Shown here piece by piece: positions 2,592 to 26,167 of a stretch of DNA of 26,167 nucleotides; the stretch's first letter is position 1; each line of letters opens with the position of its first letter. The stretch is taken from positions 1 through 26,167 of IMG/VR virus record IMGVR_UViG_3300042988_002296. One strand, 5' to 3'. Position numbers and translations under genes: made by a program. The notes below the pieces were generated by a model. The model worked only from the letters and a program-made list of their open reading frames with translations. It searched no databases and was not told the DNA's origin. The stretch comes from a virus.

Positions 2592-2750
2592 GCCCCCAGC
2601 CCCCGGGCGGCCTTCTCATTTCAGGCCTCACCCTGAACCCCCCGAACGCGGGTCAACGGGTCAAACATCGCAAGCAAAGGAACAACCTGTAACTAACAGG
2701 CTTCCCCAATGCGTCGAAGGGTGGTTATGATTATGGGGGTGGGAGGTGGT

Positions 2751-3146
2751 ATGCGTATAGTTTTGGCCTTGGTGACGGCGCTTATCGTGGGGTGTATTAC
2801 GGGCGAGGAAGACCGCGGGAAATACGATGGGCTGTATCGGACGGAAAGATCCGCTGGGGGATGGGGGTATATCTCCATCGAGGGAGAGAAGTGGGAGGAG
2901 TACGGCAAGGATTCTACGGGGAGGGTTTCGCCCCGCAAGTCCATCTTCCATTTCAGGGCCTCGGGAGACACTCTTTACCCCGTGCTTGATCTCCTCCCAA
3001 ACGCTGCCGGTACGAAGTACGAGCCGTGCACCAGCTCATGCGAGTATGGCGCCTATCTTTTTTTGGGGGATAGTTTGAAGTATGTCCTGAGAAGAAATGG
3101 CGATGTGGTAATCGCTCCTCAAATTTGGCTGCGAACCTCCGAGTAG
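2751..3146 (+). CDS. Predicted lipoprotein, unknown function
   Basis: A 131-residue protein starting at ATG 2751, preceded by a GGGAGG tract. An upstream in-frame ATG at 2709 would place 14 extra residues before the signal and is less likely. The first 18 residues (MRIVLALVTALIVGCITG) are a lipoprotein signal peptide with lipobox L-I-V-G-C, so the mature protein would begin at Cys15 and be lipid-anchored. The mature part is small and polar, with repeated Tyr/Gly (DGLYRTERSAGGWGYISIEG) and two closely spaced Cys (C-T-S-S-C), and looks like a beta-rich domain. Phage-borne lipoproteins are often superinfection-exclusion factors, but no family is recognised. It ends 5 bases before the stop of the convergent tail gene, with no terminator visible between them. 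Confidence 0.6.
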   Translation: MRIVLALVTALIVGCITGEEDRGKYDGLYRTERSAGGWGYISIEGEKWEEYGKDSTGRVSPRKSIFHFRASGDTLYPVLDLLPNAAGTKYEPCTSSCEYGAYLFLGDSLKYVLRRNGDVVIAPQIWLRTSE

Positions 3147-3151
3147 CCAGA

Positions 3152-5818
3152 TCACGGTGAGGTATCCGGCTCCAACATGACGCTCACCTCGATGTAGTCT
3201 TTACCGTCCGACCCGTCCCCCGGTACGACAATCTTTCCCACTATCCACCCGGCCACGCTCTCCCCGTCAGTAGCGAAGCTGTCGTTGAAGGTCACCTTAT
3301 CCAGCAGCTCAAGGATTGCGTGGGTCGCAGTGTTGGGTAGGCGGTAGGAAATGATTTCCTTGCGGAAGGCCGTCCACTGGCATATTTCGTCCATGTACAG
3401 CTTGGCGGCGTTCTGGGCGGCCGGCAGGCCCCAAGCCCCCTCCGCGTCCGGGAACCACGATGCGTCAGCCATATCATCCGGAAGGGTCTGGATAAGCCCG
3501 TATCTCTGCCAGGAGAGGTGGCACGGGTCCCAATTGTTCTTTGCCCTGGCGTACTCATCGTTGTTGTACCCGAGCGCGTAGGACCTCCACAGCGCCGCCC
3601 CGTTTCCGTCCAGGGTAGCCTCGGCCGGGAATTGGTCTTCGTCTATCTTTGTGATCTGGAGGAAGAGGTCGTACTTCTCCGTGCCAGGGTTCCATGCATA
3701 ATTTACCTGGGGGGCATTGTACAGGCGCGAAAGGCTCGTTAGCTCGCGAGACCCGATAGACCCGTGAAGGATAACCGCCGCGTCGTGAGTCGCAACGGCA
3801 GCGCTACCCCTCCAAGCCTTCGCCGCGCGCGCCCCGTTGTTACGCGGGATGATGCCAAAGAAGCCGAACTGAGCAAGGTCTTGGCATAGGTCAAATGATG
3901 CCGCACCCCCATCCAACTGCCGACCGATACACCAATCTCGGCGAGCCCCGGTCGAAGGATGGGAGAGCGCGTCGAAGGACACGGTATCGACGGCATTGGG
4001 AGCGCCGTCGAAGTCCCTGATGATTGCCTCCACGGCGTCGGCGATGGTTAGGACGGGGTTGGCGGCGGTCTTCCGTCCGCCCCAGGTGCTTCCAAAAGTC
4101 TCTCCGATGACCTTGGAATACAGTGTGTCAGATACGAGATTTACGATCTTTCGGCCTACGAATCCAATTTCCTTTAAACGGATATAGGTGTTGGCGTTAA
4201 TGGTCCCGGCTGGGTCGATAAATATCGAAACCCTAAGCGTGCCGTAGGCCGTCGCTTTTTTTTCATCACCGATTAGTGACTGGATTGCAAACTCTGATCT
4301 TCGGGTATAAAAGGCTTGGGGGGTGTCAGAGTCTCCAAAGTATTCCCCGGGTAGGGAAACAAAATTCGCACCTTCTTCTTCCCAGGTGTTTTCAATGTCT
4401 GGGAGAAGCGAAAGCCCCCCAACAATAGCGGTAGTCCTTCGGCCATACAAATCCACTGCCGCAACATTGAATTCTAGATCGGAGTTATACGGATCAGCGG
4501 AATTTGCCGAGACGTTTACCAGAAGAAATATTTCGCTGTAATCCTTAGTTAGCTCCTGCGATGGGATTTTGACATCCAAGCCCACCGCCATTTTTTCAAG
4601 ATGCGCCGTGGCGATGAATTCAACGTAGGTGTTCCGGTTTTGATCGAAGGCGCTCCCGATGACTCCGTCGCTGAGCGCGGCATTGAAGAGTTCATGAATA
4701 GACACATCCTCGGGAACTATTGGCGTGAATACCGAAAGGTCGGCATTGCCTTCGATCCCCTCGACGATGACCTCTACGCCCGGCAAACCTACGTCTGAAA
4801 TTTCAGCCGCTTCTTCATTAAGGAGAACCTCATTGACATCTCCAAAGGTTTTCGAGGAGTCGTCATACGCTTCGACCACAGGGCGGCCACTGGATCCATT
4901 CTCGAATGAAGAGATGGGCCTGCTGGAAACGATGAGGACTCCAGAAAACTCAGCCACCTCGAAATAGGTGACGCTCTGATCGGTTTGGGATGTCGAGGTC
5001 CAGATATTCGGCGCAGCGTCAAACGGGCGTGCGAGGGTGACCCGGGTGATATCGGTTCCTGTGTTGGTGGCGAGGTTGGAAATGATTCGGATGGCCTGAT
5101 CGGAGCCGCCAATGAAGATCCGGAGGTACCTCCCCACAAGGAGAGGGGCGTTTGCGCCGAAAGATACCCCCTCAGTATACAGGTCCACCGTCCTGTCTCC
5201 CTCGCTATAAGCCTTGGCGGCGCATACGGTGAAAGAAACCGAGCCAATCAAGTTGAGGGTTGTCTTTTCCCCTGCTGCCCGAACATTGACGAGGGTGGCG
5301 TGGGTGATTCTGCCTAGCGAAACTGGGACAAATTTATCCAGGCTATCTTGGGGCGCGCTCGCGAATTCTTCGGTTGTGATTCGGCGAGTAAGAGCTGGCC
5401 GGTGAATGCTCCTGAACGCGTCCATGGCCCGGATGCGGAACTCATGCTCATCGGAGTCGAAGTCCCCGACGCGGCCCGTCCAGTCCTGCGTGGCGACCCC
5501 ATCCCGGAAGGTGTAGAAAACTATCTCCTTCTGCACCAGGTTGAGGCCCAAGGTCTGGATGCGCTTCCACAGCGGGGTGCCGTCCACCTCCGCGACCACC
5601 GCCAGGGAGAACCCGCTCATGGTGGCGTAGGAGCCGCCGGCGGTGATTTCAATCTCCTGGGAGACGGGGGAGAAGGACCCCTTGGTGATGAGTCCCTCCT
5701 TCCACCCGTCGATAGCGGGGCGGCCGGTGATCCATTGGATGACGCCGCCCACGAGGCCAAGGGAGTAGTCGGTGAGGGCCTGGCTGGTGGTTATCTTGAC
5801 GCCGTATTGGATGTCCAT
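3152..5818 (-). CDS. Phage tail tip / baseplate-hub-like structural protein
   Basis: An 888-residue protein, last gene of the tail operon. The N-terminal about 190 residues look like a known phage tail domain: a GSFSPVSQEIEITAGGSYAT segment, then LWKRI, a V-x-F-Y-T-F-R-D-G strand, W-T-G-R-V-G-D-F, and P-V-S-L-G-R-I-T-H-A. The end (LLDKVTFNDSF ... VAGWIVGKIVV ... DYIEVSVMLEPD) matches the usual C-terminal strand pattern of tail-hub proteins, in which W-x-V-G-x-I precedes a final beta hairpin. The middle (about residues 290-600) is beta-rich and encoded by noticeably more AT-rich DNA, suggesting domain exchange. The ATG follows the spike stop by 3 bases and lacks a good ribosome site, so translation is probably coupled. 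The exact hub position in the virion is inferred. Confidence 0.6.
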   Translation of the reverse strand: MDIQYGVKITTSQALTDYSLGLVGGVIQWITGRPAIDGWKEGLITKGSFSPVSQEIEITAGGSYATMSGFSLAVVAEVDGTPLWKRIQTLGLNLVQKEIVFYTFRDGVATQDWTGRVGDFDSDEHEFRIRAMDAFRSIHRPALTRRITTEEFASAPQDSLDKFVPVSLGRITHATLVNVRAAGEKTTLNLIGSVSFTVCAAKAYSEGDRTVDLYTEGVSFGANAPLLVGRYLRIFIGGSDQAIRIISNLATNTGTDITRVTLARPFDAAPNIWTSTSQTDQSVTYFEVAEFSGVLIVSSRPISSFENGSSGRPVVEAYDDSSKTFGDVNEVLLNEEAAEISDVGLPGVEVIVEGIEGNADLSVFTPIVPEDVSIHELFNAALSDGVIGSAFDQNRNTYVEFIATAHLEKMAVGLDVKIPSQELTKDYSEIFLLVNVSANSADPYNSDLEFNVAAVDLYGRRTTAIVGGLSLLPDIENTWEEEGANFVSLPGEYFGDSDTPQAFYTRRSEFAIQSLIGDEKKATAYGTLRVSIFIDPAGTINANTYIRLKEIGFVGRKIVNLVSDTLYSKVIGETFGSTWGGRKTAANPVLTIADAVEAIIRDFDGAPNAVDTVSFDALSHPSTGARRDWCIGRQLDGGAASFDLCQDLAQFGFFGIIPRNNGARAAKAWRGSAAVATHDAAVILHGSIGSRELTSLSRLYNAPQVNYAWNPGTEKYDLFLQITKIDEDQFPAEATLDGNGAALWRSYALGYNNDEYARAKNNWDPCHLSWQRYGLIQTLPDDMADASWFPDAEGAWGLPAAQNAAKLYMDEICQWTAFRKEIISYRLPNTATHAILELLDKVTFNDSFATDGESVAGWIVGKIVVPGDGSDGKDYIEVSVMLEPDTSP

Positions 5819-24662: not shown

Positions 24663-24897
24663 GGTCCACCCCTTCGCCCCGCAGGGCTGCCATGTAATCC
24701 GCCAGGTGCTTTTCCACCCCAGGGACGTCGTACCCGTCCACGTGCGCGGCGATCCCGTCGCCTTCTCCATTATCGTACCCAGCACGGAAGGCAGCCTCCA
24801 GGCTCGGGGAGACGGGGATCGGGGCGCAGGACTGGCAATCCTCTCGACGCCCATCCCGCCATTGATTTGTTGCGCCGCAAAGATGGTCATACCTCAT
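24652..24897 (-). CDS. Small hypothetical protein, 81 residues
   Basis: It starts at ATG 24897, 11 bases inside the preceding gene; the alternative upstream ATG at 24927 adds an Arg/Pro-rich stretch and is less likely. It contains two Cys pairs near the start (L-C-G-A-T-N and D-C-Q-S-C), then S-L-E-A-A-F-R-A-G-Y-D-N-G, and a helix V-E-K-H-L-A-D-Y-M-A-A-L-R. The F-R-A-G-Y-x-x-G segment is common in small phage proteins of unknown function. Confidence 0.5.
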   Translation of the reverse strand: MRYDHLCGATNQWRDGRREDCQSCAPIPVSPSLEAAFRAGYDNGEGDGIAAHVDGYDVPGVEKHLADYMAALRGEGVDHGL

Positions 24898-25393
24898 GGT
24901 CGGTCTCCTTGGGGGCCTCAGTCTCATCCTCAGCCATTGCCACCTTGTCCGCCTGTGCGGAGATCTCCCGCAGGCCCCGCATCATGTCAGGGGTGATGAT
25001 GGCCCCCTTGGGCTGTGGGCGTCCATCCACGGCGTCAATCAGGGCGTCTCGTGAGGCGACCATTACGATTGGGTCCCTCCATTGCGCACCCCCATCGTTG
25101 TAGTCGCGCATGGCCTTGACGTAGGTGCGGGCCAGGGAGGCGATGCGCCCGTCCGCAACTGTCGATGGATCTTTGGCGGTTGCTTGGCCCCGTATCTCCC
25201 GTATCATAGTCGTTACCTGGGCCAGAATGGCGTCTATCTGGGATTGCTCCGTGGAGGAGATGTAGCGGCCCCCGCGAGGCTCTGGGCGGGCAAGGGCCGC
25301 CTCCACCCTCCTGAATTCCGCGAACGGCTTTCCTCTATGTGGGGATTCGTTCAGGTAGGAGCGTATTGCTTCGATGTCTTTTTCGATGGTCAT
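24887..25393 (-). CDS. Hypothetical protein, 168 residues
   Basis: It starts at ATG 25393; the bases ATGA also contain the stop of the alternative methyltransferase frame. AGGAG lies about 10 bases upstream. It is mainly helical, with an N-terminal I-E-A-I-R-S-Y-L, the centre SQIDAILAQVTTMIREIRGQ, then S-L-A-R-T-Y-V-K-A-M-R-D-Y and a final acidic tail. No family is recognised. Its tight coupling to the methyltransferase locus suggests co-expression. Confidence 0.5.
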   Translation of the reverse strand: MTIEKDIEAIRSYLNESPHRGKPFAEFRRVEAALARPEPRGGRYISSTEQSQIDAILAQVTTMIREIRGQATAKDPSTVADGRIASLARTYVKAMRDYNDGGAQWRDPIVMVASRDALIDAVDGRPQPKGAIITPDMMRGLREISAQADKVAMAEDETEAPKETDHEV

Positions 25394-25875
25394 GCTATGG
25401 TATCTCCTATGTTACTGGTATTGATTGATGATTGGTGTTGGTCCGCCGAGGAGGATCCAGGCTGCCGCCGCTTGGAGCGGGACCCATGCGTCCCCGAGGG
25501 CGCTGATTCGACGGCCGCGGTCGAGCCCAGCGGAAACCCCATCCACCACTCGGCAAATGCCGGGGTGAGGCGGATTCCAATGGTACGCGCCACAGTATCC
25601 TGCAGCGGCTTGGATCGCGTCTCCGTCTGCCTGCTGTATCCCTCCGCGCAGAGGGTTGGGAGCATGCGAAGAGCATTCCGCAATCCCACCTGCCGCTTCT
25701 TGCCGGTCGGGTCCATGCCGGTGAAGGTCGTGCCCGGCGGAAGCGTCCGGGATCCTTGCATTTCCGAGGCAGTCAGGGTCGGCATTAGCCGAAGGGCTGT
25801 CGCTATGCCGTTCCCGGATTTCGCGCTCGCCCCCTTGCGGTTGTGGTTGCCGCAAACAGTCAGCGTCGGCAAGGT
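25390..25875 (-). CDS. Alternative-frame methyltransferase C-terminal segment
   Basis: The frame one base ahead (+1) of the methyltransferase frame is open here and reads L-P-T-L-T-V-C-G-N-H-N-R-K-G-A-S, two further M-P-T-L-T / L-P-T-L-C repeats, then R-L-T-P-A-F-A-E-W-W-M-G-F-P-L-G (typical motif-IX region) and a Ser/Arg-rich end. These are the hallmarks of one widespread class of phage C5 methyltransferase C-termini. It has no believable start of its own after the catalytic motifs. Its TGA (25392-25390) overlaps the ATG of the next gene as ATGA, the junction style used by most genes of this cluster. It could be the true C-terminus after a +1 frameshift, a sequencing indel, or a dual-coded domain. 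Confidence 0.45.
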   Translation of the reverse strand, partial: TLPTLTVCGNHNRKGASAKSGNGIATALRLMPTLTASEMQGSRTLPPGTTFTGMDPTGKKRQVGLRNALRMLPTLCAEGYSRQTETRSKPLQDTVARTIGIRLTPAFAEWWMGFPLGSTAAVESAPSGTHGSRSKRRQPGSSSADQHQSSINTSNIGDTIA

Positions 25876-26167
25876 GCGCGAGCAGAAACCACCTGTCCCG
25901 CTTATGAGGGGCCCCAACTTCCGCAGCGGATAGGGTTCCATCCTCGTAGGTGTATCCACGGTCGCGGAGGTCGCGCAGGACCCGATCCCGTCCTCGGTTT
26001 TTGATTTGGGGGCTGTTCTCGAAAAAGACCCATCGAGGACCCCAAAGGTCAATTGCTCGGAGGCATCCGGCATAGGTGGGACCAGTGCTGGATCCTCTGA
26101 GCCCAGCCCCTTTTCCGGCGCTCGAAATATCTCGGCAAGAGAATCCCGCTGCGAGGAGATCCACGCC
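25412..26167 (-). CDS. C5-cytosine DNA methyltransferase, 5' end beyond the window
   Basis: Partial: at least 250 residues, with the beginning (SAM-binding motif I) outside the window. Counting from the GTG at 26164, motif IV is G-F-S-C-R-D-I-S (7-14) with catalytic Cys10 but Ser in place of the usual Pro. E-N-S at 49-51 is motif VI. G-A-P-H-K-R-D-R (84-91) is motif VIII. The recognition region has L-A-D-A-D and A-N-A-D-P-D. I-C-R-V-V-D-G-V-S-A-G-L-D-R (203-216) and L-G-D-A-W-V-P (223-229) fit motif X of another common class. It methylates cytosine at C5 and probably protects phage DNA or marks it for packaging. The same DNA encodes methyltransferase-like sequence in a second frame. Confidence 0.85.
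   Translation of the reverse strand, partial: GVDLLAAGFSCRDISSAGKGAGLRGSSTGPTYAGCLRAIDLWGPRWVFFENSPQIKNRGRDRVLRDLRDRGYTYEDGTLSAAEVGAPHKRDRWFLLAHLADADCLRQPQPQGGEREIRERHSDSPSANADPDCLGNARIPDASAGHDLHRHGPDRQEAAGGIAECSSHAPNPLRGGIQQADGDAIQAAAGYCGAYHWNPPHPGICRVVDGVSAGLDRGRRISALGDAWVPLQAAAAWILLGGPTPIINQYQ

Follow-up and report, generated by a model that had tools for sequence, protein, structure and literature searches.

Can a single stretch of phage DNA encode the two halves of one enzyme in overlapping reading frames? The question is raised by a C5-cytosine DNA methyltransferase gene lying at the end of a viral contig (IMG/VR record IMGVR_UViG_3300042988_002296, positions 1 to 26,167; this whole stretch of 26,167 nt is called the window). 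A first-pass annotation had noticed that the C-terminal half of the gene reads as methyltransferase in frame A and again in the overlapping +1 frame, B. It had proposed that one locus gives two proteins, either through a +1 ribosomal slip at TTT-C or through a switchable recognition domain, and had kept an assembly indel as the alternative. Comparison with relatives makes it highly probable, in our view, that this locus specifies a C5-cytosine DNA methyltransferase of two subunits, the alpha and beta chains, each using one of the two frames of the same bases.

Two readings of one methyltransferase gene

Translation confirms all sequence statements of the first-pass annotation and places the locus on the minus strand, with the following features:

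25412..26167, minus: alpha chain, frame A, C5-cytosine methyltransferase large domain with motifs IV-VIII and X (PF00145, phrog_363, 11 relatives with the same layout)
25390..26166, minus: beta chain, frame B (+1), predicted recognition part and motif IX (phrog_1008, match to L015, purifying selection in B)
26123..26146, minus: alpha motif IV, GFSCRDIS, from translation (usual form GFPCQDIS)
26003..26026, minus: alpha motif VI, FFENSPQI, from translation (aligned family A1/A3)
25877..25915, minus: alpha motif VIII region, GAPHKRDRWFLLA; codon selection passes from A to B just past it
25508..25873, minus: doubly read region with selection in B (window against 11 relatives), comprising the predicted beta recognition part and motif IX, and the alpha linker
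starts 25872, minus: frame B LPTLTVCGNHNRKGAS, from translation
25846..25872, minus: beta LPTLTVCGN, first of three P-T-L repeats, from translation (conserved in alignment A4)
25759-25785 and 25636-25662, minus: second and third P-T-L repeats of beta, from translation
25525..25572, minus: beta motif IX-like RLTPAFAEWWMGFPLG (contains AEWWMGFPLG), in frame with I-VIII and X in single-chain relatives
25517-25561, minus: alpha reading of the motif IX bases, GICRVVDGVSAGLDR, from translation
25457..25507, minus: alpha motif X, ISALGDAWVPLQAAAAW (ISALGDAWVP lies within); codon selection is back in A
25412-25414, minus: alpha stop, from translation
25390-25392, minus: beta stop TGA, from translation
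25390..25393, minus: ATGA overlap, shared by the beta stop TGA and the next gene's ATG, from ORF positions
24887-25393, minus: next gene, with its start ATG in the ATGA overlap

The window's alpha holds the C5-cytosine methyltransferase catalytic motifs IV, VI, VIII and X, and the catalytic Cys of motif IV is retained; motif I (SAM binding) is present in relatives, the window's gene being cut at 26167 before it. Frame B carries, over the same bases as A, the motif IX-like 'LTPAFAEWWMGFPLG' together with the target-recognition part. With IV-VIII and X in A and IX in B only, the window therefore shows the large-chain/small-chain arrangement of the M.EcoHK31I type; it is not of the single-chain type, in that motif IX is out of frame with the alpha motifs.

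Motif IV reads GFSC[R/K]DIS in the window and in two relatives (L002 and L003), the near-invariant Pro and Gln being substituted and the Cys kept; motif X also reads GDAWVP, and activity or substrate may differ. The methyltransferase of L002 is flanked by long low-complexity repeats (about 1-1750 and 2650-4621; GYGDGDGYG / SATATASA readings). As the first-pass annotation had pointed out, the B stop overlaps the next start as ATGA; the next gene, beginning at beta's stop, may be translationally coupled to beta and not to alpha.

The separate database searches of the two frames that the first-pass annotation had proposed each gave significant methyltransferase matches. Alpha matches PF00145 (E=2.9e-15) and, in the PHROG search, phrog_363 (4.4e-32). 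For the tail alone, frame A matches phrog_32758 (4.2e-05) and phrog_363, both 'DNA methyltransferase' PHROGs, and frame B matches a different 'DNA methyltransferase' PHROG, phrog_1008 (2.4e-04), the motifs named in the two frames lying at the expected bases, offset by one. The B tail is also 62% identical to L015 (4e-53). It had been suspected that two familiar methyltransferase tail families are frameshifted versions of each other; the two families are indeed two frames of the same DNA.

Frame B is open across all 777 nt of the gene present. At a GC content of 63%, however, only 1.22 stops are expected there (P=0.22), and an open B is not significant by itself. Moreover, the contig end at 26167 truncates the 5' end of the alpha gene, and the 5' end of beta is not seen either, the first B-frame ATG within the window being at 26073. 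As the window alone cannot establish frame B, the case rests on relatives.

Motif layout and codon selection among relatives

A tblastn search with either tail of the window against annotated phages gave no match at 1e-5, and relatives were therefore drawn from IMG/VR and GTDB. Each frame served as a query, followed by motifs I-VIII alone, and these scans gathered at least 326 loci, the sources being IMG/VR, bacterial genomes and annotated phages. Among the matches listed, motif VIII has an identifiable end in 319 loci; of these, 264 keep motif X in A along with I-VIII and have motif IX in B (family consensus 'LNPxWVEWLMGWPxGW'); 23 have both IX and X in B, mainly in Streptomyces phages and actinobacterial genomes, and nine have all motifs in one frame. 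These proportions describe the retrieved loci, which are related and not fully independent, and are not a census.

The set spans complete isolate phage, plasmid and chromosome records as well as prophage-like bacterial loci. The split-frame layout also occurs in Salmonella phage S9-5, Acinetobacter phage ABMM1, Vibrio phage 1.236.O, Paenibacillus phage Shelly and mycobacteriophage SG4; a Salmonella-phage-like copy is found in 4 of 5,426 E. coli genomes, and an alpha chain used as a tblastn query hits 472 Mycobacterium phage records. Existing annotations often list frame A alone, B having been chosen in Pseudomonas phage phPA-G and Vibrio phage 1.236.O; both frames are annotated in few records, such as Paenibacillus phage Shelly (gp55 and the 'internal gene' gp56).

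Such breadth bears on the possibility that assembly or sequencing indels have put the tail in the wrong frame. Indels are seen in a few relatives (L074, L263, L307), but hundreds of contigs share the layout, as do complete records of isolate phages, plasmids and chromosomes, and both frames are intact in each. The chance that indels account for the layout is negligible, and for the family as a whole the alternative raised in the first-pass annotation is excluded by a pattern present in hundreds of loci, complete isolate genomes included.

Several loci depart from the common layout. In L307, L310, L312, L074 and L263 an indel swaps the frames in the recognition region or at motif IX, so that I-VIII and IX are fused into one frame and X falls outside it, with some difference of detail in L263; three contigs of one lineage share a single such indel. 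L059, L060, L066, L189-L192, L198 and L202 have I-VIII in one ORF and the recognition region, IX and X in a +1 ORF. Streptomyces phage phiBT1 gp9.1, annotated as 'may be inactive', is among these AquI-like split loci; the AquI-like split in Streptomyces phages, gp9.1 included, and in actinobacteria may well be active. In Mycobacterium phage Llama (genes 74/75, L331), alpha, compared with SG4 gene 64 (L337), changes frame once motif VI is passed, and the interrupted chain is annotated as two DNA methylase genes.

The frame on which selection acts was determined by counting substitutions per codon position in in-frame alignments, third positions varying most in the selected frame. Over 621 pairs from 90 sequences, selection is in A for motifs I-VIII, in B once VIII has ended and until X is reached, and again in A at X, and these switches coincide with the motif borders. 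Correction for kinship among loci is only partial in such tests; in 79 disjoint pairs, A is selected over I-VIII in 77 of 77, B between VIII and X in 70 of 74, and A at motif X in 46 of 47. The window itself agrees: against its 11 nearest relatives among the matches listed, tail identity is 0.54-0.68 in B and 0.34-0.49 in A, with excess substitutions at B third positions. Selection by frame, in the window's comparison as in the disjoint pairs, thus supports two earlier proposals, namely that one locus gives two proteins and that the +1 frame is the one in use over the tail.

A contrary reading would make A a whole functional methyltransferase and B a meaningless frame, open through composition and the conservation of A. 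The open B expected by chance in the window agrees with it, as do the many annotations that list only A. It does not account for a tail more conserved in B than in A, with substitutions at B third positions, nor for a B that stays open in genes of 46-50% GC, where 4-9 stops are expected, carries motif IX and matches single-chain enzymes. Codon positions across relatives reject this reading, which the window alone could not do, and we consider it highly improbable.

Conversely, the codon-position tests on relatives detected no codon constraint of its own in the alpha tail in frame A, except at motif X. The switchable recognition domain suggested in the first-pass annotation is not supported by such a tail: the two frames are complementary halves, not alternatives.

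Open frames and start codons

The openness of both frames was assessed in 213 non-redundant genes. Between motifs VIII and IX, 212 of them have no stop in A, where 3.0 are expected when synonymous B codons are shuffled, and 212 have none in B. Under motifs I-VIII, 179 have no stop in B, against 3.07 expected when synonymous A codons are shuffled. Stops are not depleted in the third frame. In the 34 genes that do have B-frame stops under motifs I-VIII, beta must start internally or otherwise. Because a set found with the whole of alpha is biased towards an open A, openness was re-tested on sets chosen by I-VIII alone; these agree, so that the choice of intact alpha chains is not the cause.

Start codons add to this picture. 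In the largest subclass the gene opens with [A/G/T]TGAATGAG, alpha starting from the first codon and beta from an ATG four bases later. In all 100 genes the alpha Asn codon containing this ATG is AAT, compared with 39% at their other Asn codons (Fisher P 6e-33, relatedness of genes ignored), and in 96 of the 100 a beta-frame stop directly precedes the ATG. Several phages (L067, L068) have no alpha start codon at the usual place and retain the beta ATG. In another clade the start is ATGACATG, beta preceding alpha. An obvious 5' beta ATG is absent from the window's nearest relatives among the matches listed (L015, L002, L250, L254, L257). Two overlapping frames can be translated from adjacent starts in E. 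coli, at AUGUG and GUGUG sites (PMC9841429), and the start codons described here, overlapping or nearly adjacent, suggest that alpha and beta are co-initiated in many relatives.

Programmed frameshifting would instead yield one fused enzyme, through a +1 slip after motif VIII and possibly a -1 slip back before X, with A alone as a by-product. The selected frame does change at exactly two points, and in the Streptomyces phages and actinobacteria that have IX and X in +1 a single slip would complete the enzyme. Against this, motif X lies in A in the window's class, where one slip would give an incomplete enzyme and two opposite slips would be needed; beta has a conserved ATG of its own, preceded by a stop; and the TTT-C proposed earlier as slip site is unconserved, occurring in frame near motif VIII in only 6 of 213 relatives and being absent from the window's nearest ones among the matches listed, so that the family lacks the conserved slip site that marks frameshift genes. 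Finally, A is open under B and B is open under I-VIII. This openness of each frame beyond its own part fits two complete polypeptides, and slips would require neither. We regard frameshifting as unlikely, and it seems probable that members of this large phage and prophage methyltransferase family, many of which are misannotated, as a rule make two proteins from the same bases, often by co-initiation.

A proposed two-subunit enzyme and its known counterparts

C5 methyltransferases consist of a large domain with motifs I-VIII and X and a small domain with the recognition region and motif IX (PMC3404938), and good complementation is obtained when a chain is cut between motif VIII and the recognition region (PMC5944983). 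As alpha and beta divide along these two structural domains, we propose a mechanism of complementing chains. Alpha would be the large catalytic domain, with motifs I-VIII joined to X by a linker that only has to be free of stops. Beta would be the small DNA-recognition domain, with the target-recognition region and motif IX; its N-terminal extension, a largely unselected +1 reading of the I-VIII bases, may be a mere leader. We infer that both chains are translated and that they probably assemble into a heterodimer forming one enzyme, which would likely methylate cytosines in phage DNA, and perhaps host DNA, and so take part in phage DNA modification.

The part assigned to beta derives from homology. 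Searches of Pfam and NCBIfam found no model for beta, and no PDB entry emerged as a relative with a profile built from six beta chains. A larger profile, built from 210 beta tails, matches the corresponding segment in 9 of 9 single-chain methyltransferases (best 8e-10) and in 23 of 23 loci of the split actinobacterial type, with both IX and X in B, and matches 0 reversed control sequences. In single-chain relatives the equivalent of beta's end, 'FVEWMMGLPxGWVTD...LGNGVVPQQ', is in frame with the rest, and the model of one of them, L009, matches M.HhaI along its length (Foldseek), the middle of the model being of low confidence. Because its profile matches the equivalent segment of single-chain enzymes, sequence comparison identifies beta as the portion of the enzyme that holds the recognition region and motif IX.

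Alternatively, beta could overlap the methyltransferase as a separate protein with another job, such as a phage counter-defence factor. A start of its own and selection on its frame would suit such a protein, and unrelated out-of-frame genes are known in phage methylases, as with a hidden HNH endonuclease (PMC11855218). The AlphaFold model of the window's isolated beta chain is not confidently folded (pLDDT 63, pTM 0.29), which would also suit a separate protein; this weak model was not counted as evidence and no fold search was made with it. The match of beta to the recognition/motif IX segment of single-chain methyltransferases and the lack of a motif IX in alpha's own frame argue against a separate job, which we find very unlikely.

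If the two-subunit reading is correct, this would be among the most widespread long dual-coding gene pairs of tailed phages. Databases hold phrog_363 and phrog_1008 as separate 'DNA methyltransferases'; here they are two frames of one gene, so that one-chain annotations miss half of the enzyme. A protein cloned from a single frame would probably be inactive, and specificities of phage methyltransferases may have been left unassigned in this way. As a long natural dual-coding gene in which each frame is strongly selected where the other only stays open, the locus offers a clean setting to study the origin, co-initiation and evolution of overlapping genes, and phage isolates of Mycobacterium, Streptomyces, Salmonella, Vibrio and Acinetobacter make the arrangement directly testable. 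The literature searched contained no description of overlapping methyltransferase subunits in phages, which is not proof of absence; what appears new is how widely phages have the arrangement, where exactly the domains are split, with the recognition part in beta, and the co-initiated starts of a large subclass.

The arrangement nevertheless has counterparts. In M.EcoHK31I the small subunit's coding sequence lies out of frame within the gene for the large subunit, just as the small chain of the window's family does within the gene of the large chain. M.EcoHK31I is likewise a two-polypeptide C5 methyltransferase with motif IX on the small chain, its large subunit bearing I-VIII and X (Lee, Kam and Shaw 1995, as summarised in PMC3404938), a likeness that concerns published motif layout and not sequence. 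It differs in that its predicted recognition domain is assigned to the large subunit, whereas selection and homology place it in beta here; it is also part of a restriction-modification system (YGGCCR), whereas the present loci are mostly phages and prophage-like. M.AquI (CYCGRG) has two chains split between VIII and IX, but with motif X on the small chain and not, as in the window's class, on the large one; it is closer to the Streptomyces and actinobacterial relatives with IX and X in B (L059, L060, L066, L189-L192), a feature found in only 23 loci among the matches listed. Single-chain C5 methyltransferases (M.HhaI, M.HaeIII; L009, L212, L213) have the same motifs in the same order, with the beta-equivalent segment between VIII and X, but in one chain and one frame.

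Among phages, the ShiLan element of mycobacteriophage methylases also places a second protein out of frame in a phage methylase gene, but it is a mobile HNH endonuclease insertion (PMC11855218), whereas beta would be the enzyme's own recognition part. In Paenibacillus phage Shelly (NC_041909), for which a search for functional work on gp55/gp56 found none, gp56 is annotated as 'g55 internal gene', is nested in +1 and has the beta motif, although beta starts internally there; the arrangement had thus already been noticed by the annotators of that phage.
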